Source: Halichondria panicea
Lineage: Eukaryota > Porifera > Demospongiae > Suberitida > Halichondriidae
Assembly (NCBI RefSeq): GCF_963675165.1
Contig: NC_087377.1
Coordinates: forward strand, 8,697,122 to 8,761,121
Direction of reading: 5' to 3'
Length of the DNA stretch: 64,000 nt
Shown here: in pieces, positions 25,785 to 61,205 of the stretch
Layout: each line of letters begins with the position of its first letter
Numbering within the stretch: the first letter of the stretch is position 1
Translations under genes and position numbers: made by a program
The notes under the pieces: generated by a model
Seen by the model: the letters and a program-made list of their open reading frames with translations, nothing else
Told to the model about the DNA's origin: nothing
Database searches by the model: none

Positions 25785-25955
25785 CTAATTGTCCTCATCG
25801 CCCTCACTCTTATCACTCTTCTTAAAATGCTCTATGGAAGCGTACTCCACAGCTTCATGTCCCTCTGCCCCACCAGTAGGAGTGACTGTGGCATCAACTT
25901 TCGCCTTATTCTTGTCCTTGGTGGCCATCTCCAAGTCAGCATAGATCAGAGCATT
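25785..25955 (-). other. Alternative last exon of receptor C with two ITIM-like motifs
   Basis: Acceptor 'tttctcag', phase 0, 56 codons to a TAG. Begins NALIYADLEM and later has EAVEYASIEHF. LIYADL and VEYASI both fit [SIVL]-x-Y-x-x-[ILV]. Its phase-0 start fits the end of exon 30144-30221 but not the donor-like GTCGTG of 26779, so I read it as alternative to 26765-26935 rather than downstream of it. Confidence 0.6.
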
Positions 25956-28900
25956 CTGAGAAAACGAAGAAAAGGGATTAACGTGACGTCACAGTCATAC
26001 AATTTAATGTCACAGTCACAAAATGTATCGATATAACGTCATAGTACAATGTATCGACAAGACTGACATGGGTTTAACGTTATAGCTATAAGTGTATCAT
26101 CAATAAGGTAATGTCAATAAACCCATAAAGTGCTAAGACAAAACAAAGTTGGTACTCGTGATTACTATTCACAATGCGGCTACTTTGTTGTGACTTGGTA
26201 ATAAAAGAAGGGGCACAATTGTACGTCATTATACGGTCTGAGTGAGTGAAACCCCTCTTAGAGCAACCACTTCTAAAGAAAGGCCAACCATGATAAAGGA
26301 CCCACGTCTACGTACCCAGGCCTCCAATGAACCAGTTTTGGTACAAACCACTACAGCAAAGTCCACAAATAGTTCTGAGTCCGCTCTATGAAGGGCTACT
26401 GGAGTCAGTGCATAATAGGTAACTCAATGAAAATCCTAGATTTATATTTAGGTAAAGGATAACACACAGCTACAGCTAGGAATGTCTGGTATAAATCTAT
26501 ACAAAGTCATGTGGGACGAGTTATATAGGGATTGGTAAAGATCACAATAATAAGACACTAATTTTGCAGCAGATAGACCATGCACATGTCAAGTCACTAC
26601 ATATAAAACCCAGTTATATACATGATAGACTCGTACATACACTATACTAGTATAAAAAATTGTTAATCTGGTAAGGTTAAACTAATGAGTTTCAGTTAAT
26701 TAATGCTAATAATCTGCACGACCTTGTTTTTGCCTGAGCCAACACTAATAAGTTTCGGTTAATGTTAATCTGCACGACCTGCTTTTCCCTGAGACAACAA
26801 ATCCTCGTACTCCCCCTCTGTTGTTGCTGAGGCCTGTGAGTCATCGATTCTCTGTCCCCATGGTTTCTTTATTTGCTCATAGGCAATATTCTTCTTAAGT
26901 ACTGGAGCGAAAGCTTCGTTGGGCTGCTCAATTGCCTAGTAACATACCACGACCTAGGTTACACATGTACCTACTAACGAGGTGCACATTGCCTAGCAAT
27001 ATACCACATCTGTTAATAATTGGTGTAAGAGAAATATATGGCAGGAATGCCGAGTCGACAGCCTACAACAACATTCCACACTGTTACTGTAACATGAGTA
27101 ATTAATCGATCTTGAAAGCAAAATCAAAATAATTCTAAGAGGACCTATATTATCTATCAAAAGTGTTTCTCACACTCGTGACTTATCAGACTTATCATTG
27201 AAACCTTAGCTATAAATAAGCAAACATGTTTATATAACGAATAATGGAAAAGGGATAATCAACGGAACACACCTTAAACAAACGCACTCAGACTAAGATA
27301 TGCTCTTCTTTCACAACAAACAATAAAGAGAAGCTAGCTTATTCATTGTTACTAGATAGGAGCCCATGGGAAATCATCTTGTATGGGCTTCTGGTGTATG
27401 TTGGGTAATACTCTAATTATGTGGTGGCTTGGCTATATATAGGAGAACAACTGTTCTGGGAAAGACTATTGTACATGCATGCACTATCAGTGAGATCATA
27501 TAAGCTTCAAAATTTTACCTTTTTGCGAAGTTAAGAAGCCATATATATTCTGAAAGTTGTCATTTCACACAAATAAGCCTACACGTATATTTGGGGCATA
27601 CAAACCAGTGTACACTTCCTGACCACAGGGGAAGTTAAGACAGCACCTTGGCTCAGTGAGGCCACACACACTAGGGCAGTATCTTATAAGGTCTCAATTA
27701 CATGTACTATTATGTTCTCCATATGTATCTGCTGAAATGAAAGCTCAAATTATTTAGCCTGCCCAGAGACTAGAAGTCTTTGAGATGAGCCCACTCAAAC
27801 TGTGGACTAGCAATAACTAATTACTATGCCACACACGCACAAATGAACTAGCTCATAGCATATCCTGTTACATACGACTGGAAAAGCAACAAGAGGAGGC
27901 AATGCCTCTCCACAATGTATGCGCCCAGAGGAGGTTCGACAACCGTGCGCCTAGTATTATTTTTGTTGAATCAGCATTTTCATAAACTTGCCTTTAATGT
28001 GTTGCACTCCTCTCAGACTTATATGTAGTCCTATCTTGTATTGTTAGGTCTAGTTTAGTAATAGGAGCTCTAACTCTCAATAACATCTGTAAAGGCAAAT
28101 TTTATGAAATGCTGATTCAATGCTAGGTGCATGGTTGTCGGACCTCCTCTGGTACATGGGTGTGCCATACCACCCCTATACATGTACTAGAGACAAGCAC
28201 ACACACTGCAGTACCAGTGTATATAAGCTATTGTACATATCAGTGAAACTGTATATGTCACATCGGAACTCATGTTATAAATACTCAACCACTGCAATTA
28301 TACAAACTGTAGGAGCGATCAGTTTCAGAAACTATTCAAACAGGTAGAGTTTCTGTTGCCTAATGGTAGCATACTAATGGGAGCAACTCACAGTACAGTA
28401 CAGTACAGTACATGCAGGCTTTAATTCAGTGTGTATGTAGAGTGTGCATGTAGGTTCCTAACTAAACTTTGTTGCTATTTCAATGTCTCGTAACAACAAT
28501 CTGATATTTAGGGTCACATGTGTGCATACAGTACAGAGTTCTAAAATTAGATTAGAGGTATTTTTAGCCACAATGCTATGTATACTGAATGCCCACACAT
28601 ACACCTGTATAATAGTACACTAAACCAGTTGGCCAAGTCAATCATCTATAATCAATGAATGCAAATACAGAGGAACCTCTCACTTAATGTTGGATACACA
28701 TGTTTATAAGGAGTCCTGATAAAGTGTTCTTCTATTGAACTTGATTCATCGTCTTGAATAGTACATAATTATGATGATAAAAATATGTACTTAATTAGGG
28801 CTCCACTGTACCGTAAACATGTGACAAATGTGGTTCAATTAAGACGCAAATTCTCACCCCCGTGGGTAAATATTGACAGTGATACTGAATACACCCCAGC

Positions 28901-31900
28901 CCACACACTAAGGGAACACGGCTGACAGCATCCTCTGGGGAATTTTGCAACACCCATGAATCCATTTAGTGCCTGGCAGTGATTCTAGTTATAGACCCAA
29001 ATACTACGACAGATGTTTCTTACTAAAGCTGAGACTGCTTTATCAATCTATGTACTTGTACATGTACACAATGCTACACAATGGGGATGGGAATGTTCTT
29101 GTACTGATAAGACACTACAAAACAACCACCTTAGCAGAACAGTTTCAAGCAGTGAACTGACTTTATATTGTGGCCACACTGTAAGCTGGTCATGCACCCT
29201 TGAACAAGCCTGAGGGCGCATACATATTGCATAAAACTATAACATGAGGATTCAACCTAATGCAACCTATAAGCCATTCTATTGTAATGTTATGCCCAAG
29301 GGTGACTGTGACAAACAGATTTCATTGCATTGCACTAGTTAGGGGAATGCAGTGTTACAGGAAAGTTGGCATGTGAGGGAGGTGGGAATCACCATTGATA
29401 AGAAACACTCCAAAACAGACAAACATTTCCAAAGAATACATAGGTAGAGATATGAATGATAATGAAGTAGACAACATTGCCTTTGGGAACATTTCTATTC
29501 TCTGAAACACTTATCAACAGGCAGGCACACAAACAAGGAGACAACATATATCCAACAAGCTAGAATGATCACCCTATCAGGTTATACCCGGTCTCTCAAC
29601 CATTGCCTCCCACAAACCACATAAGTGGTCACACAGTACTCCCTACATACCTCAAAGCACAGCTCAGGTGCACTGGGTTGTTGGTGCATGTGTACAACAT
29701 GTGCAAAGCTCACTAGACCACGACAAATAGAATGTTGGTACAATGCAACTCCTAATAGGGAACTTATCACAGTAAAAAACTAACTGTTGTGCAATACCAG
29801 GGCAAGTTTTGGTGTGTGGATAGCAACTACAGGAAAGCATAGGGAAACATTGACACACAGAGCCAAAAGCACAAGGAATACAACTGACACGTACACACAT
29901 AATTATTAGGGCAGCTACTAAGACTAGCTCATAATGTGAGCTGGTGTGCAAAGAAATCCTTGCACTATATTAGCACAAATTCCTCAAACATTTACTATTT
30001 AGTGTAACACACAGCTTTTAGCCTACCTAAGCAAACACTACAGACCACACACACACAACAAGCCACTAAACAGCAACAGTTCATACAAGTGTTTAACCAG
30101 AGCTAGACTAAGCAATAACACCTAATTTGTGGTCGTAACTCACTGAGTCTGGGCCAGCATCCACATCTTCATTCCCTGGAATCACGTCAGGTGACTTGTC
30201 AGCAGCAGCGGCTTCAGGGTTCTGAGTGGAGAGGTGGCTTATGAAACATTGGAACAAGAAGTGCTCACCATGCATGCTTAAGCGCACATACACGATTATA
30301 GTCGTATGAACTGCCCAATTATTGATTCGTACAGCTCAGGATACATGTAGTTACTTACGTTGAACGTATTGCGGTACAATAATTTTCGTACTGTCACAAT
30401 ACGAAAATATCCACCATATGAAAATAACTCGCTATTATAATACGGTATTAGTTCTCAAAAACACACATACATGTATATTGTGCACAGACATGTATTTGCA
30501 GATAGTTAACAGACTGCCCTTAACATGCGGCACTGATCAAGTCCCGTACTCCACTCACTACTAGAGGGAGCTATATTTGACCTTCCCCTAACGGACTGAC
30601 CTTGAAGGTCTCAGTGGGGGGAGAATCAGATATAGGGTCCACCTGATCTCCATGGCTGGGACTGTGGGGGCAGTATATACTTAGTAGTAAAACTTGTTAA
30701 GACAAGATGTGTATGTACACGCATGTACCCACAAGTACTCTGTTCACAAAACAAACTGCTCAGTGCATACTACATGTAGCTCACGTCAGTTTGTCACTCT
30801 GTTCCTCCATTTCGTGTGATACCTTCATTCCTCCGGACTCTGAATAAATTTGGATTCGAAAGTGAAAAAGCAATACAGAGAAAAATCACTTACTTCTTGT
30901 CTTGCTCCAGTAACACAGTACAATGACAATGATGACCACAACTAGTACTAGAACAAACAGAAAACCAACAATGATTCCAGCAATACAACCTTCAGTACAT
31001 CCTCCCTGTGGTGAAGTTGTCCCTGGTGATGAGGTTGTTAGGTCACTGCCGGTAGGAGACGTTGTTGGAGGTGGAGGGACCGTTGTTGCTGTAAGAATAA
31101 TAAGTGGAACCAAAGAGCATGCAGAGGTGGTTGTAATATTCATTTACCAACACGTTTTACCTGCCCAGGCGTATAAAGTAGCCTTGAGAACTAACTTAGG
31201 AATTCTATACTCATTATAGAAGATTGGCCACTCTTCAACTTACGGAGAGCTGCAATTAAAAAATCTGCCACAAAAGCGTCCACATTTACTTCCGTCATGT
31301 CATTGCGACGCACAATGCGAACTGTGTAGGTGTAACTAGTACCAGGCATAAGACCTGAGAACATCACAGTGTACTCGTAGCTAGCAGAGAAGTTGGCTAC
31401 AACTGGTGCAGTGTCGTTGGGGGTTAGAGAGGTGATGACTAGTAGCTGGTCTAGTCGATACTCAGTGATTGGTAGGTTCAGAGTAACAGTGAAGTTAGTA
31501 CCAGATACTGTCCCTACATTCTGTGAAGTAATGTTTTGACCAGGAACTGCATGGGTGGACACAACATGCGCATCAAGCTAAAACGTGAATCAGAATGACA
31601 GGCTCACTTGTGAAATCACTCGATGCCATTTCCCTACAGTTTCCAGAGGTCAGTTGCACACACATCGTAAAAGTTTCTCCAAAGTCAGCATCATCAGGAA
31701 GAGTGACTTCAAATGACTCACCAGTAAACACTATGTTAGGTGTACAAGCCATGCCGACCCGATTGTACCCAATCATACGACTGGTGTTAACAATCTGAGA
31801 TATTTCCTAATAAACAATTTATGGGTAAAATATTCATTCCACTTTTGTGAAAATACGTACTTGAACCATTCCAAAAAATACTTTCATCATGATGTTCATG

Positions 31901-34900
31901 GTTATGTTTGTCCCATTATTTTCCATGACCGTGCTGCTCAACCGATATACACCAGAAATAGTAGGGGTCACAAAATCTGTGAAAGAATGTAATACAGAAT
32001 GTTAGGCATTTGGTTATTATTACCTGGTGCGATTAAACTGACATCTGCAGTAGAGTCTCTCCCAGCTAACAGTCCCATTGGTGTCATTGGTGTCACGGTG
32101 ACGGATGTATTCATACAAAAAGGAAAACCTGAGTCATTCAATAGTTCTCTAGTCAAACAGGTAACGATATCAGTTGTGTTATAAGTCACTCCATTCCAAC
32201 CAATAGAGTAACTTGTGATGCAATCAGGATAGTCGGTGTTAAGAGTTTGCTTCCATTGCAAAACTGTACTCTCCAATTTAGTACTCACATTGGAAACACC
32301 ATTCACTCCTGAACAGAGAAATGAAACTGCCATTATACCATACAGCGGATTACTTTCATATGGCGTACATTTCGTATTATACATGTAGAGCATCATACGA
32401 ATTAAACTACGAAATTATTCTATCGCATTCTATGAAGGTGACATAATTATTTTGCAAGATTAAATTTCTGCGTATGAGAAACATTTGTATCCACAATTAA
32501 ATGGAAATGCAATGAATCCCATTTGTGAATACAGTATAAGCGGGTAGTTTTTGTTGGTGCAAATTTTCGTACGAACAACCATTTATGTATTTTTAATTTT
32601 CGTACAGCTCAGGATAGTTACTTTTTGTATGCTGCTCTTCAATACGAAATAATTATAGGAAAATTTCCACTATATACGGTAATTACAAACGCTATTAATC
32701 TCTCAACTTAATACCATTATAGCGGGAAATTTTCGATGTTTAGCTCGAGAGCCCTCAGAAGAAATGTTTACAGTTCTGTTGTAATACCCACATTTCAATG
32801 CCAGGAAACCACACCCACAAAGAGCTTTACATGTGAAATACTGGTGCGCGAGAGTTTCTCCCAGGTTTTAATTTTCGCGTTAACTGCTCTCGCGAGATCT
32901 CTCAAAAATTTCCCTCTATACGTTACCATTAAAATAATAGTGAAATAGTACCAGTGAAAATATGTCCGCTTAAGGTACATGGACTATGAGGCCAGGTTAC
33001 ATACCTGAGAGGTCAGCAGTGAAGCTGTAAGGTGCACTCGTATCTCCCGACACTCCACTAGGCGTGATTACGAACCCCACAAAGCTGTAACTATAGCCAC
33101 ACACATCCAAACCATCGACTGTCACAGGTGATGTAGAGCTTGACCCACCACTCACTGACCCATCGCCACCATCTTGAGTGGCATTGACCACATAGGTGGC
33201 AGCACACAGAGTATTATTGTCCACTGACAAGCTCACATTTGCCATGGACTGAGATATCTGCTCCACCATGGTGATGTTGGGAGTTGGAATGGCTGCACAA
33301 GAAATATTAAAAAGTAAAACATTAAGAAGCCATCTCACCTGCAACACTGATGTTTATACTGGCAAGTACAGACACTAATGCAGCATTTTGGCCAGACAAG
33401 CACTCCACTTCACCACTCAGTCCTTCAGTGGCAGTTATCTCGACAGTTGAGCTCAGTGTTGAACCACCACTGACCATGGTGACCGTGAAGGGAGCACAAA
33501 TAGGAAGATTTGGTGATCCATGAACGACAAGACATTGAGCTGATACACCAGGAAGCCTCCACTCAGTAATAGCACCAATAGTGATGTTATGAGTACAAGT
33601 GATGGAGATGGGATCTCCTGGACAAGCTGTGACTACTCCATTGGTGGACTCAGGAGTTGACATCAAGCTACCAAATGCATCTGCAAGATGAGTAATAAGT
33701 ACCAATTGATTAAGTACTGTGCCATAAAAATGTCTTTTAAAACCCTCAAAATTGCGTTCAGCCCAGCTGGGACCTAAATTATGCGCGTATGTTCTACAGC
33801 TGAGAATAGACATTTAGGTGTGGTCTAGCTTAGTTTCACTTGCTAGCTAGCTGTTCAAAAGTGTGAAGGAAGTCAAAGATGCAGGATGATTGTTGCAAGC
33901 ACCAGAACAAATTATAGCAACGGTGTAGGCGCGGCCTCACAAATTATGCTAATGCTCACGTAACGTGGTGCTTAAATTATATTGTGCTGTAATTACATCA
34001 ATTACGGTACCGTACTTATTCAATATAAGGTGACACTTAAAAAGTCAGAGTCGTTTCTTTTGGAAGTTGAACAATTATGTTGAAGTTCTGGTGTCGCATA
34101 TTAGAGGGTCGGATCTAATTGGAGGTAAGTCGAGGCTACTCTATCATCCCCTCGATTATAGCCTGCAGGGTTTCATTAAAGATTAATTTTGGGGGAAGGT
34201 TTTTACGCAGGCCGCAAAATGTTTGGCCACTCCCACATTTGTTTCCCACACTCCCTATTACATGCTAGTGCATCACAGTATCTAGTAACATAATAACATC
34301 ATAGTCAGTACTATAATGCTCATTAGTCCACACACATTTTGGGGGGAAGGTTTACCCCCACCCCACTAAGATGAAACCCTGACAGGCTGCTTAAATTATC
34401 GGTTATTTTCGAGGCACTAAATTTTTGCGGATTGCTCGAAGGTTCAAATGACCACCCCTACAGTACTAGAGAGGTTTCCGGAAATAAATGAGGTTCGAGG
34501 TCAATCCTCGAAAGCTGTGAAAATATACAGCTATATGCCTTGGTACATTGTTTCTAGCTGCCTGGAATTGAAGCTATGGTATTTAGGACACAAAATTAAA
34601 CCAATTTGTCAACGCAGCAATCGCGAGGTCAGGCTAAGGTCGAGGGTGAGGGGTCCGACACCGTAATTTTTAGCGTACAAGATTTCAAAATCTCGAGATT
34701 TCAGAGATTTCAAAGATTTCACAGAGCATCACTCGGGTTGAAGATTTAAAGTTCTACCGTCATTCAACACTTGCACTAGTCATGCACCTCGGTCATGGAT
34801 GCACTAGCACTTGGCACTTGCACTGTGAGCAGATGCAATCAAGGCATAGATGGGCGTGCCCGTCCCCTTTTTGTAGGTAGGCCACGCCCATCTAGTCAAG

Positions 34901-35445: not shown

Positions 35446-35815
35446 CTCTAGCTAGCAAGGCTTACTGGCTTTTTTTAGCTACAAGCATAGACACTACTAC
35501 ACAGCCAAAAATTTCATTCTGTATCGGAACTGGCACAGTGTGTATCGGAAGTGGTTACAGTTGCATACAGATCATGTGATCATTTGTGAATCTGAACATT
35601 AGGGGAACAGGTCAGATTCAAAATGTGTGTACACTTATGTATCGTTTTGTAATCTGAGCTGAATCAGACTTGAAATTCTATCATTCTGAAACTGACTGTA
35701 AAGCTCTTTTAATAATAGTTTCAGAATTGTCATTATTTTAAAGGCAAAGTGATAGTACAGACAACAAATTAGCAATAGAATTGAAAGCACAAAAGTGATA
35801 GTAACAACATGAAAG

Positions 35816-41016: not shown

Positions 41017-44000
41017 ATGGCAGTAAATCAACTAGCCTCGATTCCAGGCCGCTCTTCGCTCGAAGAGAGGGCCTGGTATCGACTGCTTGCGCATGCGCCA
41101 CCTATTACCCGGAAAGTGGGTAATTCTGATACAGGGATTTGAGGAGTTCTTGCAACTGTAATGTCGAGAGCGGAAGTACCTGTCACGTGAACCTTGGTAA
41201 CAAGATTGAATTTTGGCTCATTCTAAACCAATTTTTCTCCAATAGAGCCTATTCATTTTTGTTAAACTGGGAAAACAACGACTTACATCAGAAAGCTCTA
41301 AGAGCCTTTGGTAAAGGCTTTGCACCACAGTAGGTTGTCAGCTGAAGCTATCCTTGAGATTCTAATCGTTTTGTGAGCTACTACTTGCCCCAGCCTGCCC
41401 GTAAGCTGTTGAAAGTGTATCACTAGTCTCAGTAAAATCTCTCTTAGGCTAGCTCCAGCTGGATACACAGTTTGTGTGACAGACTAATAGTACACGATTG
41501 GGCTCAAGGATAGCTTTAGCTGTGGTGCAAAGGCTTGCAGATAATTATAATTATGCAGAGCAAAGCCTCCTGTATAGGCCGATTTTTTCCCAAAATAAAC
41601 AGGCCTAAAGGCTTTATTGGAGAAAAATTGGTTTGAAATGAGCCATAATTACGTAACTGTTCACGTGACAGGTACTTCCGCTCTTGAATTACAGTTGCAA
41701 GAACTCCTCAAATCCCTGTACCATTGTATATGCTCAGTAAAACAATGACGTCACAACGAACGGAAGTGGATTGAAGAAAGTGGATAGAAGGTTTCTAGCC
41801 CGTGTGATAGCATTCTAATAGCTACCCTTAGCCTACTATGTTAACAAAAGACTCACAGCCTGCAACAGTGTGGATAACAATCCTCTGAACGGAGGGGAAG
41901 GCTGACAATAGCCTATATGGATAGGCCACGCCCATCTGACAGAAAGTCGACTCTATCAGAAAGAAATTGCTGCTGTAACCAATACAGCTCTGTCTCTAGC
42001 TAGCTAGCTATATAGCTCTGTGTCTGACTTTTAATATGAAGAGTATTCTTGTCTATATAGTGATTATGTTGTTCAGGATATAATTCGGGTAAAAATTCAG
42101 TTTAATGGAAAACATTACGGGAATATTATCCAATAATTTTGCGCATGCGCAAGCAGTCAGTAGCAGGCCTTGTGAAGGAGGCTATAAATCAACAAGCCCT
42201 GTTGCTTCAGCAACTTATACAGCTGTCTGGACAAGGTCAAAGGCAACCATTTATCCAGGTTAACACAAACAGCTCTAACAGCAGTAGCAGAACCACCCAA
42301 CAAGCTGAAAAAGTGAGTTGGGTTTGTCAAATTGTATAGGGCCTAGGGAGCCTAGGTTTTATTATGTAGTAAATGCCTTTAATAATTCTCTCTCTCTTTG
42401 TTTTTCAGGCTCAAATTTACTCGTACAAAGTTAAAATAATAAATCCTCTCAAAAAGAGTGATGTTATCACCTGTGAGTTACATCATTTTAACAGCAAGTT
42501 TGAATCGGTTCTCTCTCTAAGAATGAAGTTAATTGAACATTTAAAAGAACACGTTCCTAGTACTGTTGATTTTAATATTATGAAGGTCAACAACATACCA
42601 AAGTATTGGTTGTCACTCCTGATGACCTCACGTTGATGTACACCAAGTTTTCAGGAGGACACCTCACTCTATGGTGTGATGGAAAGTTAGATGAAGCAGG
42701 AAAGAAGCGAAAAAGGGATGATGTGGATCCAAAAACAAAGCGGCAAGAGAAAGAGGAAGATGTTGACTCTATTTTCAAAGATCTCAAACGTAGGCATGAC
42801 AGCAAATTTGACACACCCAAACTTCGCCTATGGGCAAGGATGATATGCTCCAAACTGCATGATGATTATGATAAGCCTCCAGATATCCCTGCTTTTTCTG
42901 GTGTTGTGCCAAAAAGGCCTAGGAGAGAGAGCCTCGGTGATGCTCTTTCAGATGTAGCTGTAGCCTCGATCCCAGGCCGAGTTTTCGCTTTTATAACGGT
43001 TAGGCGAACAACTGGGCCTGGTACTAGTTGTCTGCGCATGCGTCAGTCGTTCGTCAGATTCTGACGAATGGATATTCTCGTTCACTTTCGTGACATTTAT
43101 ATTTGTGTACTATCGTGTACTAGAAGTCAGTTCCCGTTTTATCATTATTGGAATCGATTGGAATCGATTGGAATGGCTCTTAGCTGAAGCTTCTCTCTTC
43201 TCTGAAGCTTATTCTGAAGACTGAACAACAAGGGAAGAGGTATAAAGCTTTGTCAAGCTTGTTAAGGTCAGATATTTTTGTGTGGGCCCTATGGCCGGCT
43301 ATGCTATCAAGTCTTGTTCATGTTTGGCAAGAATGTAGGTAGACTATAGTTTCATCATTAATATGGTGGATCAAGTGAAGAGTGTGAGCTAGAGAACTTG
43401 GTGCTGCCATCATCAGCTCGTCGACAATGACACTATAATCGAGAAATTTCTACACATATTTAAAATGTCTACTTCTCTGTACAGGAGCAATGGCTAATAT
43501 CCAGCTGTCCCAACAGTGCTCCTCTTGGCTATACTAACGGACGAGACTGGACAGTTTGAGGTAAGGGTTTAACCGTCTTTGGTTTCTTTTAATATTGTCC
43601 TATACTCACAGACACAGGACTGGAGTATGACCTGCTCATTCGAGCGTTGCTGGGTAGCTCAGAGACATCAAGAGAATCTACGTTTTCTCAAGCAATGAGT
43701 TACGAGTTGGGGCCTAGAATCAGAGAAGTCCAGCAGCCTGCTAAATCTTTTTGAAACGTAATTTGAAGGCATTCAATCATCCTGAAGTTGCCCTGGGTCA
43801 CTGTAATTGTGCTGCAGCACAACTGGCAACTCCCCAGGCCTTTGTGAAGCAGCTCCCTATGTGCATCTTTTGTGTACTCACTCTGTGCATTTTCTGTGTA
43901 CAAATTTCTATTATTGATTTATTAAATATTTTTGCCGACCACAAATATACAATGAAAATTTGACGCATGCGCAGACAACTAGTACCAGGCCCAGTTGTTC

Positions 44001-44152
44001 GCCTAACCGTTATAAAAGCGAAAACTCGGCCTGGGATCGAGGCTAATGTAGCTGTTGCTATCACTAAAGCTTTTACTAGCTCTAATGATAAAGTCGTCGG
44101 AGAGCAAGTTGCTGCTGCACCCTCAGTCACAAATACAGTAGACTCTCGTTAA
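41017..44152 (+). CDS. Unrecognised gene interrupted by two MULE-like insertions
   Basis: Host sequence is 41017-41032 + 42194-42312, a GT-AG intron (42313-42408), 42409-42960, and 44055-44152. Without the insertions and one target copy each, it reads MAVNQQALLLQQLIQLSGQG, then AQIYSYKVKIINP.., YEGQQHTKVLVVTPDD, LTLWCDGKLDEAGKKRKRDD (basic, NLS-like), KLRLWARMICSKLHDDYDKP, and PKRPRRESLGDALSDVAVAI, about 261 aa. One base is missing near 42585 (ATTATG where ATTTATG fits). No domain is recognised; the Lys/Arg-rich segments suggest a nuclear protein. The stop lies in what looks like another element's terminus (CAGTAGACTCTCGTTAAT at 44137), so the true C-terminus may be lost. The 5' end is 23 bp from a Tc1-like terminus (CAGGGATTTG at 40994). 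Confidence 0.55.
41033..42184. mobile_element. 1152-bp MULE-like element with perfect 9-bp target duplication
   Basis: Starts TAGCCTCGATTCCAGGCCGC and ends ..AAGGAGGCTA. The 9-mer TAAATCAAC occurs immediately before (41024-41032) and after (42185-42193). Subterminal GCGCATGCGC palindromes are on both sides. It contains a Tc1-type MITE (41132-41718). The segment 41815-41950 is shared, in reverse, with the element at 50037-50567. Sits in the first coding exon of the 41017 gene. Confidence 0.8.
41132..41718. mobile_element. Tc1-like MITE with TA target duplication
   Basis: Starts CAGGGATTTGAGGAGTTCTT and ends as its reverse complement, with arms of about 60 bp and TA on both sides (41130-41131, 41719-41720). 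The termini match the CAAATCCCTG end next to the transposase relic at 48095-48732, so that family probably mobilised it. Confidence 0.75.
42961..44045. mobile_element. 1085-bp MULE-like element with perfect 9-bp target duplication
   Basis: Terminal inverted repeats of about 81 bp (42961-43041 and 43965-44045), nearly perfect, beginning TAGCCTCGATCCCAGGCCGA. ATGTAGCTG lies directly on both sides (42952-42960, 44046-44054). No transposase ORF, so non-autonomous. The 9-bp duplication and long TIRs fit the Mutator-like superfamily. Excision in silico with one target copy rejoins the host frame exactly (..SDVAVAITK..). Confidence 0.85.
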
Positions 44153-48094: not shown

Positions 48095-48732
48095 GTGTAC
48101 AGTATCTATGGTACCAGTTTCATCAACAAAAATGAGCATTTCAGGACTGTATACAGACATATCTGTAATATACTGTTGCCTTAAGCACTCATTTCGTTGT
48201 AAGGCACATGTTTGTAGTCTTTGGTGTGTAAATCCATTGGCATGTAAGAATCTACATATATACCTGAAATACTCATATCTAAATACAACTGTGAATCTAG
48301 CTCACTTTGAATTTCACGTAAAAGAATGCCTGGTCTGTCCAATACAAGCTGAAAAATTAGTTGTTCAATAGGTGCAGTGATTTTTTGATGAGCCTTCTCT
48401 TTAGGATAGGGTTTCTTGCTAACTTCTCCAGTTGCATGAAACAGATCTAGCGTTCTGGACACTGTAGACTTATCCACACAGAGATTCTTAGCAATTTGAG
48501 ATATAGAAATCTGAAGTGCCTCCTTTTGCCATACCATCCTCCAACGAATGTCCTCAGAATAGGCGCTGCTTCTCTTCTTTTCCGAGGAAGTCATGTTCAA
48601 TGCTCAATAAAGTCTGAGATCAACGTATAAATTTGAAACTTGGCGCTGAAACAGTTAAGAAGAGACTCCGCCTACATCGTGACATCAACTTCCGCTCTGG
48701 CTTCTTGTTTGCAAGAACACTTCAAATCCCTG
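48095..48732 (-). pseudogene. Tc1/mariner-type transposase relic with one terminal repeat
   Basis: Starts at 48600 with MNMTSSEKKRSSAYSEDIRW. The N-terminal helix-turn-helix is clear (SISQIAKNLCVDKSTVSRTL). ITAPIEQLIFQLVLDRPGIL and REIQSELD follow. After a frameshift near 48258 the protein resumes as FLHANGFTHQRLQTCALQRN and reaches LIFVDETG, the first catalytic Asp of the DDE/D triad. The rest is lost. Upstream the terminus ..CAAATCCCTG ends at 48732, matching the MITE at 41132-41718. Inactive. Confidence 0.8.
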
Positions 48733-48852: not shown

Positions 48853-51800
48853 ATGAACTTCTTGCTGCATATGCTCTGTGCAGTTGTATCTTTTAAACAA
48901 CGTGAGTGCTGCTCTTTTTGCTGTATGGTAGATTTACATGAATAGTTATGCACCTATCAATGCAAAGCCCCACTACCATAGATAGTATGCCACTACCCCC
49001 CTCCGGTGAAGAGGGGACTTTGTGGGAGCTTTGTTAGTAAAACCTAGTACCTAGCCCTGGGGGTGGGAACTTTGTAAAGTCAGTATATCATAGCTGTTTG
49101 TCTGTATTGCAATTATTATTGTGTTCAACTGTCATGCCCCGGGTATTTTCCAGGGGTTTGTCAAATAAAATTGCCCAGGGGGAGAGTCCTTTGCACCTCA
49201 TAATTGACAAAGCTCCCCCTTGTCCCGGGAGGGGGGTAGTGGGGCTTTGCATTGATAGGTGCATTATAGATCTACGTAGTCTACTAAGTCTTAGACTAAG
49301 AACTGATTTCCACTCCGCTGGTCATTCAGATGCTGTTGCAATTGGTAGCTTGACGTCAACTCCTGAGTCCACCAATGGAATAGTCACAGCTTGTCTAGGA
49401 GATCCCATCTCCATCACTTGTACTCATAACATCACTATTGGTGGTATTACTGAGTGGAGGCTTCCTGGTGTATCAGCTCAATGTCTTGTCGTTCATGGAT
49501 CACCAACTCTTCCCATTTGTGCTCCCTTCACGGTCACCATGGTCAGTGGTGGTTCAACACTGAGCTCAACTGTCGAGATAACTGCCACTGAAGGACTGAG
49601 TGGTGAAGTGGAGTGCTTGTCTGGCCAAAATGCTGCATTAGTGTCTGTACTTGCCAGTATAAACATCAGTGTTGCAGGTTAGATGGCTTCTTAATGTTTT
49701 ATTTTTTAATATTTTTCTTTATATACAGCCATTCCCACTCCCAGCATCACCATGGTGGAGCAAACATCTCAGTCCATGGCAAGTGTGAGCCTGTCAGTGG
49801 ACAACACTCAGTGTGCTGCTATCTATGTGGTCAATGCCACTCAAGATGGTGGCGGTGGGTCAGTGAGTGGTGGGTCAAGCTCTACATCACCTGTGACAGT
49901 CGATGGTTTGGATGTGTGTGGCTATAGTTACAGCTTTGTGGGGTTCGTAATCACGCCTAGTGGAGTGTCGGGAGATACGAGTGCACCTTACAGCTTCACT
50001 GCTGACCTCTCAGGTATGTAACCTCATAGCCCACACTAGCCTCCTTCGCTGGCCTCCCCTGAAGAGAAGGCCTGCTACTGACAAATTTATTGGCTATTTT
50101 TTTCCTATAAAAAGTCATACACACAGCTATATACTATAGCTAGCTAGCTAGAGAGAGACAGAGCTGTATGTTTGTTGTACAGCTATTTTCTTCTGATAGA
50201 GTCAGTAGCAGTAGTATAATTATATATATAGTAGTAGTAGTATAGATGGGCGTGGCCTGTCCATACGGCTAGTGTCAGCGTTCAGACAATTAATTGTTAT
50301 CCACACTGTTGTATAGGCTGTGAGTCTTTTGTTAGCATACGCTACGGGTATAGCTATCAGAATGCGATCAGGCTATAAACCTTCAATCGAACTTTCTATC
50401 TACTTCCTTCAATTTATTTCCGTTCGTTGTGCATGTTGTGGCCATCATTGTTTTATAAGCATACAGGTTGTTATCCTGTGTTAGCCGGTATCTGGGTAAT
50501 GATAGCGTACGCGCAAGCAGTTGATACCTGGCCCACTCTCCGAGGAAGCGGCCTGGAAACGAAGCTAATCCCACACACACCTTCTTCATTCTATTTTCTG
50601 CAGGAGTCAATGATATTATTTCTAATGTGCATACCAACTCGGAGAGGACAGTTTTGCAATGGGATCAACTGACTAACATTGACTATCCTGATTGCATCAC
50701 AAGCTACTCCATTGGTTGGAATGGAATAACTTATAACACCATTGATACTGCCACCTTCGTGACTAGAGAACTACTGAGAGCCTCAGGGTTTCCTTTCTGT
50801 ACCACTACATCCGTCACCGTGACACCAGTAACTTCAATGGAACTGTTAGCTGGGAGAAACTCTACTGCAGATGTCAGCTTAATCTCACCAGGTATAAAAC
50901 TATATCTAGTAAGATTGTGTACATAAACTTTAGTACACCACAGATTTCATCACCCCAACTATCTCTGGTGTGTACAATGTGAAGGTGACCAACAGAACAG
51001 TATTCACTGGAATGGTGCAAGTACGTTTAATTTATGTTTCATTTTTTATAGCCTTTCCTTTTGTACCTCAGGGAATATCTCAGATTGTTAACCCCAGTCG
51101 TATGATTGGGTACAATCGGGTCGGCATAGCTTGTACACCTAACATAGTGTTTACTGGTGAGTCATTTGAAGTCACTCTTCCTGATGATGCTGACTCTGAA
51201 GAAACTTTTACGATGTGTGTGCAACTAATCTTTGGGAACTGTATGGAACTGAAATCTATCGATTTCACTAGTAAGTCAAACATTTTTAATGTCATCTTGT
51301 ATCTCCCACCTATGCAGTACCTGGTCGAACCATCACTGCACAGAATGGAAGAATGGTGTTGGGTACTACTAACTTCACTGTTACTGTGAATCTACCAATC
51401 ACTGAGTATCAACCGGACCAGCTACAAATTGTCATCTCTCTAACCCCCAATGACACTGCACCAGTTGTAACTGACTTCCCAACTAGCTACCAGTACACTG
51501 TGATGTTCTCAGGTCTCATGACTGGCAGAAGTTACATTTACACAGTTCGGGTTGTGCGTCGCAGTGACATGACTACAGATGTAGTGGAACCTTTTGAGGG
51601 ATCGTTCACAATTGTAGTTCTCTGTAAGTTAATTGCTGTGTACAGAATTTGTCATAGCAAACAAGGGAGCTCCCAATGAGTATATAATTTATGCAATTGA
51701 ACATTAATTTTGTCTGTAGCTACAGTACAACTTAGCGTATAGCAAGTCCTTGTACCATTTAGTAACCCTATAATTATGTTCTTTGAAGGAATGATATTTT

Positions 51801-52645
51801 TTTTCTTGTAGTCCCACCTGTAACAATCGCTAGCAGTACTGGACAGCCAACATCAGCTTACACGATCACTCTAACCCTACCCGAGATCAATTATCCTCAC
51901 AGTGAACTCATCATAATCTCTACCCTCACTCCAACTGATTCTGTACCAATTACCGATGACTTCCCGTTTTCCTCACAATACTCCGTCACCTTCAATAGAC
52001 TAAGTGATGGTGTGGTATACTCCTATTCCATCAGGGTTGTGCTGCGGACTAACACCAGCCTGGATGTGTCCATTCCAGTGACAGGCTCATTCACATTGAG
52101 TAAGCATCGAGTTACTGGGTTTGATTATGAATGCATTTGTACATATGGCATATTTGTTTGTTTTTTCTTCTTTCAACAACTTTGAGCAGATGTTTACATG
52201 TCAAATAATAGTTCAATTTGAACTTTAATATTCGTTAGGGGGCACTTCCAAACCACTTTTGCATTTTTGGAAGTGCCGCCTTACTGATGCAAAATTCACT
52301 ACAGTCCTGACGAAATACGTGTACACTTAACGCATGACCGATTTTCAGCAGGCATCAATGTCATATTGTATACTCGTTTATAACTTCTTTACAGTGACAT
52401 CTTTCTCAACTGGAGCTGCTGTTGCCCTCACATTTGTCCTGACGTTCCTGTTGACCCTGGTTATTGGAATCTCCATTGGTGTCTTCATTGTACTGACAGT
52501 GAACAAGTATAGGAGGTCTGAGAAGGTAACTCTACAAACTGACACTGAAATGATACCACCACCTGTGATATATGAAGAGCCTGAGGCCATTAAACCAGAT
52601 CCCCTCACTCAGGGGAATGCTGCGTATGGAGAAATAGTTTACTGA
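48853..52645 (+). CDS. Receptor D: intact Ig/FN3-like receptor, paralogue of C
   Basis: Exons: join(48853-48901, 49330-49677, 49729-50013, 50604-50891, 50944-51020, 51072-51270, 51318-51623, 51812-52099, 52395-52645). 2091 nt, 696 aa, all GT-AG, frame unbroken. The start was chosen because MNFLLHMLCAVVSFKQ gives a signal peptide and the exon ends in phase 1, matching the Ig exon. The Ig-like domain is aa 17-132. Five FN3-like modules follow, one more than receptor C: the 51812-52099 module is extra. Transmembrane helix: ALTFVLTFLLTLVIGISIGV. The 49-aa tail has VIYEEPE and NAAYGEIVY, near-ITIM. The Ig and first FN3 exons are almost identical to those of receptor C, so duplication or conversion is recent; the fourth module lacks 13 residues. 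Opposite strand to C and E. Confidence 0.88.
48949..49263. mobile_element. 315-bp MITE in receptor D intron 1
   Basis: Arms TGCACCTATCAATGCAAAGC and GCTTTGCATTGATAGGTGCA are perfect mirrors and continue through CCCCACTA. Inner GGGGGTAGTGG / CCACTACCCCC and CTTTGTGGGAGCTTTGT / ACAAAGCTCCCCCTTGT pairs. Confidence 0.8.
50037..50567. mobile_element. 531-bp MULE-like MITE in receptor D intron
   Basis: Ends TAGCCTCC.. and ..GAAGCTA. Flanking 9-mers AGCCCACAC and ATCCCACAC match at 8 of 9. Shares internal sequence with 41815-41950 in reverse orientation. It accounts for nearly all of the intron: removing it and one target copy leaves about 50 nt, like the neighbouring introns (50-52 nt). Confidence 0.7.
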
Positions 52646-53610: not shown

Positions 53611-53726
53611 TTAGATACTGTTTAGGAGGTATCTATGGGAATTATAAGCCCAAAGGCCAGCGAGGGTACTACGAGTGCCTGCAGGCTAATTATAATTCCC
53701 ATAGATACCGACTAAATAGTATCTAA
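53611..53726. repeat. Hairpin terminus (116 bp) of a tyrosine-recombinase element
   Basis: TTAGATACTGTTTAGGAGGT.. is mirrored by ..ATAGTATCTAA, with inner GGGAATTATAA/TTATAATTCCC and a loop containing GGGTACTACGAGTGCC. Lies 44 bp upstream of an ATG (53770) that opens the recombinase relic. Confidence 0.7.
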
Positions 53727-53769
53727 CAAGTTTAGTTGCTAGGTTCATTTCAAAAACTAACCGAAAGAA

Positions 53770-55530: not shown

Positions 55531-56270
55531 TATGCCTACATCCAACAACCAACGTATTAACAGCGACTGAACATTATAATTTTTTGTCATTACCAAAACA
55601 AAACAGTTACTTCTCATTGTTTTTTATAACAATAATTATACAAAAAACATGTTTGAAAAACACAAAAATTAATAATGAATGGTTGTTGTGAACATGAAAA
55701 TTACAGGTTTATATGAGAATTTACAGGTTAATATGGGAAATATAAACCCTGTACTGACCAATCAGATTGCTGGATTCTGGGATACTAGTAACTAAAGATA
55801 TGGTATAGCCACAGATATTTATTATGTGGCCAGTATAGCGTCTGTTATTGACGAAAACACATAACTATAAAAGCATGCATGTTTCATGTTATTCATACAT
55901 TTGCTAAGCGAACTTGAATGTTAGCTTTCAGTATATAACATCAGCATGACATACTTAATATACGATCTTAGCTTTCAATGGCAAATATTCAAGGAAAGCC
56001 AGCTATAGTATTGCACAGCCTGTCCTGCTATTTAATGGTAGAATGCATGGGGCTACAATTCAGTTCAATAACACTATGTGTACACCTAAGGAAATTGCTA
56101 TAATTTATAAGCGAAGGCACATGCATCATTGACATAGTATATATAGCTACGCCTGAAACGCCAAATTAAAAAACTATCACCAGATTTATCGATGAGTCAT
56201 CATAACTACAAAATTATCTCACAAACATTAATGTTAACTGGTATCTTGATCAATTACTTGTGTCTACATG
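55531..56270. other. Gene-free stretch
   Basis: No ORF of note. CCAATCAGATTGCTGG at 55759 is similar to the CAATCTGATTGG motif at 39749 near the helicase fragment and may mark the far end of the recombinase element. Confidence 0.35.
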
Positions 56271-56471
56271 CAGTGGAATCCCTCCTATAACGGCCACTCT
56301 GAAAGGCCAACTGTGATATAATGGCCACTCAGGCCACCCAGATCCAAAATGAACAGTTTGTGTATAATATAATTATAAAGCAACCCTTCAACAAAGGTCA
56401 CCTCTGAGTATAGTAATGGCCATCAACATTGTTCCCCAAAAGTGTCCATTATAGAGTTAGGGGTTCCACTG
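56271..56471. mobile_element. 201-bp Tc/pogo-like MITE
   Basis: Starts CAGTGGAATCCCTCCTATAA and ends ..TTAGGGGTTCCACTG. Inner ACGGCCACT / AGTGTCCATTAT pair. Non-autonomous. Confidence 0.65.
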
Positions 56472-56604
56472 TATCTAGTTGTAATTATATATTATGTGTG
56501 TACCTATAAAAAAATTATGTGTCTAAGTGGCCAGTTCAAAGGCCATGCGCATGGGATGCAAAATTAAATGAATAGCCACTTCGTTCATGATTTATTTGCA
56601 TGCA

Positions 56605-57992
56605 TATGTGACAGGGCCAATGAAAACAGACCTTAACGCGGGCATTTTCGAATCAGTTTTTATTGTTGAATCAGATAGGGCGTCCTTTAAGCTTCAAAAT
56701 GATACCAAGATCGACCTCCTAGCTACTTTCTTTCCGGAGATATGTTCGAGGGAACGCTACAAAGGTATTGCAACGCCCTCTTGAGTAAATGACGCTCAAA
56801 CGTCATGATAATTGAAGTTCAATTATTGGCTTCCGGGCACTTCCGTATACTCATAAAGCTTAGTAAAATATGTTCTGGATAAGACAAGTTAGTTAGATGA
56901 AGGCTAGGCGTTCTAGGACTCTCTAGCTAGCTAGTATAGCTATGTAGCTGGATTGCTTGGCACCTAGGAAGGATCTTCAAAGAAATAAAGAGACAAAGAC
57001 TCCCGTCGCTCAAATGGTAAGCTCTCATGTCTTGTTATAAGCTTGTACTTATTATCTGTGTAATGTATCAGTCTTATAAAAGATCCCTCACTTGTATGGA
57101 GCCTACAGAAAGTGTCTCTGTCCTTCATACAGCTTAAAGGAAGCCTAAGTGATCTATTATAGGTAGTCTTTCACTTAGTATTCATCCGTATCGATCTAAG
57201 GCTTGATCCAACTTATTAGTAGCCTTATAAGAAGCTTTCCTCCTTTAATTTAGTACTGGTATCACTGCCATTGTGCTTAGTAGTAACAGGCTTGATGGGA
57301 TGGGTGATCACATCATGGAGGGCCCAGGAAACTGCGTGGAATTGTCGTATAACATTTATATTGATGGTTCCCTCAGGTGGTGGTAAGTGTCGGAGGCCTG
57401 AGAAACGCTTGTCTATTGGCTAGAATGTAAGTGACATTGATATTGTGTCTATCTTAACTTACTACTTATCTGTAGGTTGTTATGGAATGTTTATGAGGAC
57501 AAGTGGCACGGGATACGTACATCTAAAGAAACAAGAGTGGATCTACGCCAAGCTAGCTAGCTAGATAGCTGCTCTTTCTAATCTATTTCTGTTGCTAAAT
57601 TATGTTTGTTAAGAAGTGGAGCTATAATATACCTGGCTCCTCTTGATGATTGTAAGTACTGGGCTGATGAAATAGTCCTGTACAAGTTGTCATCTTTTAT
57701 TTGTTAAAAATAATTAACAATAATAGGGAAATTCCCAGGGAATTTCCCCTCACGTAGACAGTAAATTTCATTGTAAAAAATGAACGTTCGGTGAGTTTCT
57801 TCAACGTCCGCGCTTGACCTGTTTAAAGCTTTGTAGAGACCCACATTTTTACAGGTAGGTAGAGGAAGGGTTGAAGTTAGCACCTGTGAAAAAAAAATTT
57901 TTTGCCCATGTTTTTCATTTCTACTAAATTGGCCTATAGCTTAATTTAATTATTGCCGCGTTAAGGTCTGTTTTCATTGGCCCTGTCACATA
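56605..57992. mobile_element. 1388-bp element with 36-bp terminal inverted repeats
   Basis: TATGTGACAGGGCCAATGAA.. to ..CCTTAACGCG at 56605-56640 is matched exactly in reverse at 57957-57992. No target duplication is obvious. The 65-aa ORF near the left end (56587-56784) overlaps the TIR and is unrecognised. The interior has no transposase. Confidence 0.7.
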
Positions 57993-58260
57993 TTAATAGT
58001 GTTTTTATAATAATTATTATGCTGAACATTATACAGTATAATTATATAGTTTGACTATAATAATTTATTATGATCGGTATACATAATTATTACTAAATCA
58101 CAGTGGATTAATAGTGACAATTATTACTTGCATGAGCTCTTCATTCCAGCACCAAACTTTAAGTGAGAATGCATGAATTGTACAGACTGCTAAAAACGTG
58201 TGATAAAAATCATCTGAAGTACATAAATGGACAATAATGGACAAGACTGACTGTTTTAAA

Positions 58261-61205
58261 TTAATTGAATTGCACATGTCCATAAGCAAGGTTCCCCTGG
58301 GTGTGGGGGTCTGGTTTAATGTCCTCGTATATCGGTCCCTTCAATTGAGCTGACTGTTGAACATGACCATAGGCAAGATTGTCCTGAGTGTAGGGGTCTA
58401 GTTTAAAGGTATCAGGATCTTCGTACACTGGACCCAACTGATGCATGGAGGTAAAAATAAAATCAATTCTCAAAGGCTGAGCGGCATCACGTACGGTTTT
58501 GGGTGATTCATTTATGAGGCTTGGGACATGGTTGACATGCGCAGGGTCCTATAGCTAGCAACATTACAATAAAAACGACAAAATTGAAACGGTTCTCATA
58601 AGGCATCTGTATTATACTGCACAAGTTAAAGTAGACTGTGCAATTACTATGTGTACAGGATAATAAATGGGACGAGATAAAAAAGCTTGTATATACAGAT
58701 ACCGTATTCATAGTAGGTATAGTTAGAGGGGATAAACTTTCGCTGAAAGACCGTAAGAAAGGATTTCGTGAACTAACAACTTTTTGGTGCATGCATGCAA
58801 TATTAATATTCGTGGTACATGCTAATCAGCGAAATCGCGACAATTTACACCCTCGAAATAACTTATACCCGCTATACGGTAACCTGCTATACGATAACTC
58901 ATTCACCTTGTCGGATTCAGATGTGGGCGGGTATTCAGGTATGTTGGCCATGGAATCCACCTCCTCCCCATCGTTGGTACTGCATAATGTAAGTATATAT
59001 GTATATATATATACTACGCCCATTTTCTCTACGAATTCTATACTAGCTGTAGAACATAAGCGCCACCATAATTTAGCCGCAGCGCAGTTGGGCTGAACGC
59101 AATTTTTTGTGTTCTAAAATGATTCACTCAAAAGCGAATTTTTTTTGGCACTGTAATTATACATCAATTACGGTAATGATTGGCTCATCTACCTAGTTGG
59201 GCGCGTGCCTGCACTAGGTAGATGAGCCAATCATTACCGTATTTGATGTAATTACAGTGCCAGAAAATATAGCTTCTATCTATGCTATATTAGCTACAAA
59301 CGAGAACTAGTCTATTTAAGCCATAAGCTCACGGTTTAGAAACTAAACTGTTTTGCCTGCCTACTAGCTAGCCTCATGCACAGTAACACGTATGTATACC
59401 CTAGCTAAGAAATATATGACTCACGTTATAGTTCTTTGTTGCTCCATTTCTTGTGATGATACCTTCGGTTCTGTTTTGTTATTGCAAAATTCCACACATA
59501 ATTATGAGTGAGAATAATAACTTACTTCTTGTTTTGTTCCAGTAGCACAGAACGATAGCAACGATGACCACCACTAGTACTAGAACAATCAGAAAACCAA
59601 TGATGATTCCAGCAATACAGCCACCACCACAACCTCCACCCTGAGGGGCAGCAGTTGACTGGGTGGGTGCTTGAGTGGAGGTGGTGGTAGGGGCCATGGT
59701 AGTGGGGGGAGGAGTGGTTGCTGTATATGTACAAGAAACAGTGAAGTGAAACTAGTAAAGAGTTGTTCCTCAGTCAATATAATTATGCTTACAAGGATAG
59801 GAAAGACTAGTCAGAGCATACACCAACTTACTTGGAGTTATAAGGGTCATGAAAAATCCCATAGCGGCTGAAACAACATCCACTGTAGTGTTGGCACAGA
59901 GGACAATCCTGACGGTGAAGGTGTAGGTTGTATCAGCCATGAGATTATCAAAGGTCACCGAGTACTGCATTGCAGGGCAGGAAAAATTGGATTGTCATTG
60001 GAAGGCTCAACAGTTGAGATGATGAGCAGCTCCTCGGGTTGGTAGGGAGTGAGGGGTAGAGTGATTGTGATAGTTTGACTGGTGTCTGTAGTTGGACCTT
60101 GCACCACATTAGAGATGTTCCGTTCAGGCACTACAAACAATTAATGTCGTAAGACACGTACACACAGAATATTATATACTCACCAGTGAAAGAGGCTATG
60201 GTTGCTCTTGAGCATGGACCCCTCTCGAACATCACAATGACATTAACAACATGGCCACCATCCACTCCAGGCAATGCAATCTCAAACATGTCTCCAGTGA
60301 AGTTCATCATGGGAGACAATGAACCAGTGAGGTTGGTGTAGCGATAGTTACGAGTGGATATTATAGATTCTGAAACAGCCTGAAAATTACTTACTAGTAA
60401 AACCAAACTGGATAAATGTGATTAGCTGACTTACTTGTACATTGACAAGCAATACGACACCCGTCTCATTTTCAGACTGGTTCACCAGAGCCTGAAAACT
60501 GTAGGTAAGCACCGGGGTGGGGAAATCTGCACGTAAAGAAAGAATATCACTTTTTATTGGAATCAATCACACCTACCTGGATCAATTAGGTTAGTATAGA
60601 AATTGGAGCTGCCCATAATTGAGGTCAGAGGTCGCATTGTAGTCCTTGGTGTGACTGTAGGGTGGATACTGATACAGTAAGGGAAGCCCGCTGCATTGAG
60701 TTGCTGTACAGTGAGTGATCTTGTGGTAGAGTCAACAATGGTTGTGAGGGACTGGTTCCCTTGATCAGTCACCACATAGCCAGTGATGCAGGTTGGGTAG
60801 AGAGGGTTCAAAGCGTGTGTCCATTCAATCAGTGGGTCCATTTGATTGATAGTCACAGTTATGCCCCCATTAACATCTAAAATGTAATTAAAATTAAATC
60901 AAGCTGATAGACAACGTAATTGAATTTACCTGACAGGTTTGCAGCGAAATTGATGGGAGAGCTCAATGCACTTTGAACCCCACCAGCTGTAATGACTGAT
61001 CCTGACAGTGTATAGTTGTTCTCACACACATTTAGACCAGTGACATTGAATGTTGAATCAGTGCTTGAGTTGGTAGACACGAGGCCACTAGTTGGAGTAG
61101 CATCCACTTGATACCGTGCAACACACTCAGTGTCTGTAGCTGACAAACTGGCCCTCACCACTGACTGGGAGACTTGTTCAATGGAGAGGCCAGGAGTGGG
61201 GATAT
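58261..61205 (-). CDS. Receptor E: FN3-like receptor, 5' truncated, one missing base
   Basis: Exons: complement(58261-58437, 58907-58979, 59425-59470, 59526-59720, 59832-60130, 60184-60379, 60435-60526, 60577-60876, 60930-61205). Four FN3-like modules align with those of C and D, followed by a Thr/Pro stalk, a Gly/Cys-rich juxtamembrane segment and the helix IAGIIIGFLIVLVLVVVIVA, very close to receptor C. The tail holds VYEDPD, NLAYGHVQ, IYEDIK and a second NLAYGHVQ. LAYGHV fits the ITIM pattern twice. Exon 59832-60130 is 299 bp, one base short, near GCCCTGC at about 59977. No signal peptide or Ig exon is found before the next gene at 61506, so the 5' part is missing, displaced or beyond the window. 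Confidence 0.8.
58697..58882. mobile_element. MITE of the ACCGTAT..TATACGGTA family
   Basis: Left ATACCGTATTCATAGTAGGT and right TTATACCCGCTATACGGTA. Internal 'AGGATTTCG' and 'CACCCTCGAAATAA' blocks as in 8286-8558. In a receptor E intron, ending 25 bp from exon 58907-58979. Confidence 0.6.
59147..59262. repeat. 116-bp near-perfect palindrome in receptor E intron
   Basis: GGCACTGTAATTATACATCA.. at 59147 and ..TGATGTAATTACAGTGCC ending 59262 pair over about 45-50 bp each, including GGTAATGATTGGCTCATCTA and its mirror. The loop contains GTTGGGCGCGTGCC. Confidence 0.8.

Follow-up and report, generated by a model that had tools for sequence, protein, structure and literature searches.

The closest described counterparts of the genes analysed here are receptors that combine immunoglobulin (Ig) ectodomains with tyrosine motifs in the cytoplasmic tail. 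Our subject is three loci proposed to encode such receptors, termed C, D and E, in a 64,000-nucleotide stretch of the genome of the sponge Halichondria panicea (contig C1:8,697,122-8,761,121; hereafter the window). In Hydractinia, Alr genes encode clustered Ig-type receptors with V-set domains, and candidates among them carry immunoreceptor tyrosine-based inhibitory or activation motifs (ITIM or ITAM), as described in the accessible parts of PMC12065747 and PMC11999971. In Botryllus, the fester co-receptors (FcoR) of the fuhc locus comprise V-type Ig, sushi and C2 Ig domains, a transmembrane (TM) segment and a tail with an ITIM, a hemITAM or a lone Y-x-x-[ILV] motif (PMC12065747, accessible part). 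The same 2025 review favours an early origin of ITIM/ITAM logic, describes its sponge, cnidarian and ascidian candidates as not conserved and, citing Grice 2017, names aggregation factors as proposed allorecognition molecules of sponges, all in the portion of its text available to us. Sponge Ig superfamily members are treated as adhesion molecules in the available sections of PMC11999971, and an Antarctic sponge transcriptome study counts Ig-like and fibronectin type III (FN3) domains, with the word tyrosine absent from its accessible text (PMC12723187). In a search of the open literature, with subscription papers outside its scope, none of the titles and abstracts listed described a family of ITIM receptors from sponges.

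The sponge loci resemble these systems in design and differ from each of them. The likeness to Alr is one of description, and the scale differs, with 41 Alr genes (PMC11999971, accessible part) against at least about 260 tail matches here; moreover, allorecognition genetics belong to Alr, whereas here one genome was read. FcoR receptors are approached by the third of three tail sets in the sponge genome, in which Ig-like, FN3 and sushi modules precede the TM segment and tail. Compared by description only, the two differ in domain order and number, and in the sponge closely similar tails sit on differing ectodomains. Vertebrate SIRP, KIR, LILR, Siglec and CEACAM receptors share an Ig ectodomain, a single TM segment and strict ITIM pairs, here 29 and 33 residues apart. 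The sponge proteins differ from these paired inhibitory receptors in their FN3-like and other modules and in an extra YE[DE] tyrosine, and the likeness seen is one of design.

Reading the exons supports the placement given in an initial annotation of the window, with C and E on the minus strand and D on the plus strand. Coordinates are window positions unless prefixed with a contig (C1-C15), and L001-L058 denote genome loci that were read out.

33,339-33,680, minus: first exon found of C, V-type Ig-like domain by AlphaFold2 and Foldseek, phase 1-1
33,005-33,292, minus: C module 2, FN3 in the initial annotation, fold unconfirmed, phase 1-1
32,024-32,308, minus: C module 3, FN3-like pattern, unconfirmed, placed by the exon chain with marginal profile matches
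31,608-31,976, minus: C module 4, exons 31,976-31,861 and 31,806-31,608 with a phase-0 join
31,244-31,546, minus: C module 5, FN3-like by profile against PDB, Pfam fn3 below cut-off
30,894-31,088, minus: C Thr/Pro stalk and TM exon, with homologous TM exons in E and L001-L005
30,144-30,221, minus: candidate C tail exon from splice signals and phase, phase 0-0, donor TCA/GTGAGT
26,765-26,935, minus: truncated copy of a tail exon that belongs to another receptor family (IAYEQI, YEDL), possibly an alternative C terminal exon or a relic
25,785-25,955, minus: candidate C terminal exon, LIYADL and VEYASI 33 residues apart, acceptor TTCTCAG/AAT, phase 0
49,330-52,645, plus: receptor D, from its phase-consistent exon chain
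49,330-49,677, plus: D Ig exon
49,729-50,013, 50,604-50,891, 50,944-51,020 and 51,072-51,270, plus: D exons after the Ig exon
51,318-51,623 and 51,812-52,099, plus: D module-5 copies
52,395-52,645, plus: D TM and tail exon in a single reading frame, IYEEP...NAAYGEI
58,261-61,205, minus: receptor E remnant, from exon reading and tail search
61,205-60,930, 60,876-60,577, 60,526-60,435 and 60,379-60,184, minus: first four exons of E
about 60,132-59,832, minus: E module 5, with frame break
59,720-59,526, minus: E TM exon
58,437-58,261, minus: E tail exon, LAYGHV twice
32,994-33,685 (minus) and 49,331-50,024 (D): tract common to C and D, 95.4% identity

C runs through seven exons from 33,680 to 30,894 with GT-AG borders and consistent phases. 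D forms an open, phase-consistent GT-AG chain of eight exons, with module 5 present twice and TM segment and tail in one exon. Each of the three loci encodes one hydrophobic TM segment, as had been proposed. The common module order and phase-1 borders also described earlier hold in general, with the exception of one phase-0 border within module 4. C and D are indeed nearly identical over their first two exons: the shared tract spans 697 bp from the Ig acceptor to just past the module 2 donor, and identity over the next 1.1 kb is 75.8%. This pattern suggests that the membrane-distal modules were recently converted or duplicated. E had been taken for a receptor of the same Ig build, and here the exons tell otherwise. 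Its first four exons are good, module 5 shifts reading frame between 59,994 and 59,955, and exons for the TM segment and the tail follow. Among the matches listed in the genome search with C, none is an Ig exon between the first exon of E and the window end, although a diverged exon or one beyond the window is possible. Because of the absent Ig exon and the frame break, E looks decayed.

We searched the whole genome (131 Mb in 39 contigs) with C, scoring 76 of 156 candidates, and obtained at least 93 exon matches. All of those listed lie on contig C1, mainly at 8.7-8.95, 9.16, 9.5-9.8, 11.3-11.4 and 12.8-13.0 Mb. The paralogue count that the initial annotation had suggested as a check therefore reveals a large family of Ig-type single-pass receptors clustered on this contig, and the window is the edge of that family. 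L001, L003 and L005 share one order of exons (Ig, modules 2-5, TM, middle exon, last exon), and L002 and L004 likewise contain the TM exon and the last tail exon. The last exon of the L001-type loci is the E tail, reading GPVYEDP...NLAYGHV...GPIYEDIKPDPHTQGNLAYGHVQ.

Three sets of tails could be distinguished. The E-type tail gave 47 matches at C1 8.6-10.9 Mb; eight of these are matches to the middle exon and were left out of the tail count, leaving 39 tails. The D-type tail gave 59 matches, all on C1, and merging the two lists yields 44 window-type loci, D and E of the window included. A second set, retrieved with the IAYEQI exon, comprises 70 matches, three of them C's own exons; apart from two on C2, the remaining 67 lie at C1 6.9-7.75 and 3.4-3.7 Mb. 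For the third set (SGPVYEEV...NEAYGPL or NQAYGPV), 296 candidates yielded at least 150 matches; those listed lie at C1 11.2-14.5 Mb, apart from one on C7. Together the three sets amount to at least about 260 matches, all but three of those listed on C1; these are sequence matches rather than proven genes, and some contain stops. The three tail types share one design, and the searches gave no support for descent of one from another.

The same tails are carried by different ectodomains. Third-set genes at 12.8-13.0 Mb also match the C ectodomain, and window-type tails occur in L012 and L013 with Ig exons 23% and 31% identical to that of C. The third-set loci L055 and L056 contain FN3 and sushi modules (for L055, Pfam E values of 8.5e-6 and 8e-6), and the exon in the Ig position of both has no Pfam match. 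A single reading frame spans TM segment and tail in 15 of 16 window-type, 16 of 16 third-set and 1 of 10 second-set open reading frames (ORFs), counting those with at least 40 residues ahead of the first YE motif and taking L039, which has no YE motif, whole. In the second set the TM exon is separate. For the window-type and third sets, the tail is therefore tied to the membrane without any assumption about splicing.

The Ig and FN3 ectodomains proposed earlier are upheld in part. With nine family Ig exons as input, AlphaFold2 modelled the C Ig exon at a predicted local distance difference test score (pLDDT) of 87.1 and a predicted template modelling score of 0.80. Among the Foldseek matches listed for this model, antibody light-chain V domains lead (E 2e-5, TM-score about 0.6), and a profile of the Ig exons placed V-lambda chains at the top of PDB sequences (E 6e-4). 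The predicted Ig fold thus places this exon in the Ig superfamily. Module 5 appears FN3-like by profile against PDB, with fibronectin at E 1.7e-6 over the whole chain and E 4e-4 for the best match with a single passing stretch; against Pfam fn3 it reaches E 1.5e-4, below cut-off, in three of seven members. For modules 2, 3 and 4, Pfam, profile and structure attempts gave no FN3 confirmation: the AlphaFold2 model of module 2 is poor (pLDDT 52), and module 3 has marginal matches, to gp130 (E 0.76) and, in two of seven members, to IL3Ra_N of the IL-3 receptor family (best E 0.013). Pfam alone gave the C Ig exon no match above cut-off and fn3 only below threshold; as an Ig/FN3 test it proved too weak on these sequences, and profiles and structure were required.

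All three loci had been credited with tails of the ITIM pattern [SIVL]-x-Y-x-x-[ILV]. This description stands for the candidate C terminal exon and for the LAYGHV pair of E, which is the family tail. It does not stand for AAYGEI of D, which lies outside the pattern, nor for the IAYEQI exon attributed to C, which is a shortened copy of an exon from the second-set family. Both tyrosines of the candidate C terminal exon are strict ITIMs (shuffling P about 1e-4), as are two of five in the E tail, 29 residues apart (shuffling P 0.007, with the two motifs non-independent as repeat copies); for comparison, six-frame ORFs of the window with at least 50 amino acids contain 1305 tyrosines, of which 122 fit the pattern. 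Treating the C, D and E tails as one homologous set was rejected, as C's exons differ. LIYADL and VEYASI are reminiscent of the tail of SIRP-alpha; a PDB sequence search with the C terminal exon gave no match, and SIRP homology was dropped.

The genome also encodes candidate partners for such tails. On contig C3, SH2, SH2 and tyrosine phosphatase (PTP) matches follow in order, all three confirmed by Pfam, with the PTP signature VHCSAGIGRTG readable. The second SH2 piece matches PTPN11 (E 4e-58), and the gene is an SHP1/2 orthologue. L058 contains SH2, SH2 and SH3, of PLC-gamma type by eye with SH2 found by search. Tyrosine-phosphatase exons gave at least 176 matches genome-wide, most of those listed being arrays on C4.

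Recognition receptors whose tail tyrosines dock SH2 proteins are the best fit to these observations. In the fuller reading that we favour tentatively, with close to an even chance of being right, C, D and E are clustered single-pass Ig-type receptors of an early-branching animal, and the window subfamily is inhibitory or sets thresholds through SHP1/2. The variable ectodomain, with V-type Ig, FN3-like and other modules, would bind a cell-surface or microbial ligand, with a putative immune or allorecognition role. The short, strongly conserved tail has two tyrosines, one near the membrane in YE[DE] and one towards the C terminus in N-x-A-Y-G-x-[VLI]; Src-type kinases would most likely phosphorylate both, and SH2 proteins could then dock there. 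In the window subfamily, LAYGHV often occurs twice at a spacing of 29 residues, which would match the tandem SH2 domains of the SHP1/2 orthologue; recruiting this phosphatase would give an inhibitory or threshold-setting output. The other sets, with their YE-acidic site and mostly without a strict ITIM, may signal differently or oppositely.

Conservation of the tail argues for this reading, alongside the exon chains of C and D, the Ig model, the exon order repeated in paralogues, the single frame of TM segment and tail, the number and clustering of the tails, their presence on different ectodomains and the SHP1/2 orthologue. Within the window subfamily, 44 of 54 distal motifs are strict ITIMs (L015 was dropped as a duplicate of L013 before counting). 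The 13-codon distal motif has a ratio of nonsynonymous to synonymous substitutions (dN/dS) of 0.22 across the 54 copies (dS 1.01, dN 0.22), compared with 0.54 for the Ig exon (nine genes) and 0.43 for module 2 (seven genes), all being pooled pairwise values near synonymous saturation, from overlapping but different gene sets in which some genes contribute two motif copies. On these estimates, the ratios show purifying selection and stronger constraint on the window-type tail. Positive selection on the ectodomain was considered and found no support, the pooled Ig ratio being 0.54 and the value of 2.15 for C versus D coming from a handful of changes.

Besides those limits on the dN/dS values, several results weigh against this reading. 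None of the four tyrosines in the D tail is a strict ITIM. In the second set, 2 of 13 NIAYEQ[TI] and 0 of 13 EAYA.V motifs qualify, so that 24 of 26 fail, and in the third set 0 of 21 qualify because the -2 residue is Q or E; the pattern search behind these two counts failed to pick up L026 and the second L017 motif, at a minimum, and one second-set motif in the window, with F for Y, was left uncounted. The third-set tail is less constrained, at a dN/dS of 0.49, versus 0.80 for its TM region. A signal-peptide exon was searched for in C and D, and no convincing one was found. In C and in E-type genes, introns separate the tail from the TM exon. Since the C TM exon ends in phase 1, a phase 1-to-0 link exon is needed ahead of 30,221-30,144, which itself joins in phase to the LIYADL/VEYASI exon; this link was sought and not found. 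In a genome search, neither C tail exon (25,955-25,785 and 30,221-30,144) had a second match at E ≤ 1. For these two reasons, the joining of the LIYADL/VEYASI exon to C is plausible, going by splice phase, and no firmer. In E-type genes, the middle tail exon, when read in phase with the TM exon, runs into a stop in L005; this calls for an additional link exon, which was sought without success. Inhibitory-type signalling as a general property, as first proposed, is therefore not sustained: one subfamily retains the -2 ITIM residue, and within the window D lacks it, the C tail exon gave no second match and E looks decayed. For the window subfamily alone, inhibitory polarity is plausible.

The remaining evidence of this kind bears on an activating or bidirectional function, in which YE[DE][IV]-x(n)-Y-x-x-[VLI] would act as a loose ITAM or hemITAM recruiting Src kinases and a SHARK-type kinase, with SHP as a brake only. 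Sixty of the 64 tails contain YE[DE] (34/38 window-type, 10/10 second-set, 16/16 third-set), and the proximal YE[DE][IVP] resembles a Src-family SH2 site more than an ITIM. By eye, L057 has SH2, ankyrin and SH2 ahead of a kinase start and is SHARK-like; its SH2 pieces were found by search. A strict ITAM is YxxL/I-x(6-8)-YxxL/I and a loose one Yxx[LIV]-x(6-12)-Yxx[LIV]. Of the tails, 15 of 38 in the window-type set, 4 of 10 in the second and none of 16 in the third have the loose form, and 1 of 64 has the strict form. The E or Q at -2 in all 21 third-set motifs would suit activation, whereas the strict ITIM kept by most window-subfamily copies would not, and we consider this alternative possible but unlikely. 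That the window copies are largely relics, with E decayed, the C tail exons due to chance or capture, and only D and distant paralogues making receptors, is improbable. The frame break and absent Ig match of E agree with it, as do C tail exons that gave no second match or are borrowed from the other family and the unfound signal-peptide exons, yet the C and D ectodomain exons have open frames, intact splice signals and phases that match, and the C terminal exon is open with an ITIM at both tyrosines. Highly improbable, in our estimate, is a role of the tyrosines mainly as YxxPhi clathrin-adaptor sorting signals in adhesion or uptake receptors, with the tail controlling endocytosis. In its favour, the window and third sets retain a hydrophobic residue at +3, after the distal tyrosine, but do not retain the ITIM residue at -2. 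However, most window-type copies also keep a K-P-D-P-H-T-Q-G-N run, beyond Y and +3, the second tyrosine in YE[DE] is unneeded for sorting, and +3 of the second-set NIAYEQ is T in 11 of 13.

Returning to SH2-docking receptors with an inhibitory window subfamily, a single genome that has one tail design both with and without the ITIM shows the arrangement expected of paired receptors, with a putative polarity. We regard it as doubtful, though worth stating, that C1 carries hundreds of V-type Ig receptors with one two-tyrosine tail on various ectodomains and that these, with SHP and SHARK-type partners, form a natural killer-like system predating the cnidarian/bilaterian split. If the favoured reading is true, the ITIM/ITAM-tail logic of the Hydractinia and Botryllus candidates would extend towards the base of animals. 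A sponge gene set with hundreds of Ig receptors, a common tyrosine tail and SHP would offer concrete genes and peptides for testing.

Sponge aggregation factors are Calx-beta proteins, not Ig receptors. A Calx-beta search of the genome (150 of 645 candidates scored) gave at least 151 matches, and those listed lie mostly on C2, C5, C15 and C1 15-16 Mb, away from the receptor clusters. Six listed matches, at C1:7,762,976-7,948,613, border the second receptor cluster, just beyond its last listed tail at 7.746 Mb, leaving room for a link between receptors and aggregation factors. One Calx-beta match, C6:2,382,998-2,383,231, lies within an open frame of 10,065 residues. A Wnt search of the genome gave 10 exon matches, as befits an animal, and the abundance of Calx-beta and tyrosine-phosphatase matches points to a sponge.

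Other genes lie in or beside the receptor loci. In L012 (C1:8,627,500-8,637,400), pieces of an SH2 (C1:8,635,968-8,636,129) and PH gene (Pfam E 3e-14 and 2.9e-7), which we take to be DAPP1/Bam32-like, stand beside a receptor with a window-type tail. A second SH2 match 23 kb away (C1:8,613,183-8,613,344) is near another window-type tail, and for this reason adaptor and receptor may have been duplicated together. RIG-I/Dicer-type helicase-like pieces, recognized by eye, occur in or beside receptor genes in L004 (3700-4943) and L005 (7393-8647), the former between TM exon and tail exon.

Within the window, a helix-turn-helix, transposase-like ORF (48,181-48,603, minus) and a PHD-finger ORF (61,503-61,754, minus) lie between or beside the receptor loci and are probably mobile-element remnants; the latter is upstream of E, together with pieces resembling such remnants by eye. 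On the minus strand, 23,724-24,218 and 22,738-23,106 contain a prolyl 4-hydroxylase alpha N-terminal region (Pfam P4Ha_N, E 6e-12) and a neighbouring ORF without a Pfam match. An 85-bp perfect inverted repeat occupies 42,961-43,045 and 43,961-44,045, its arms about 1 kb apart.

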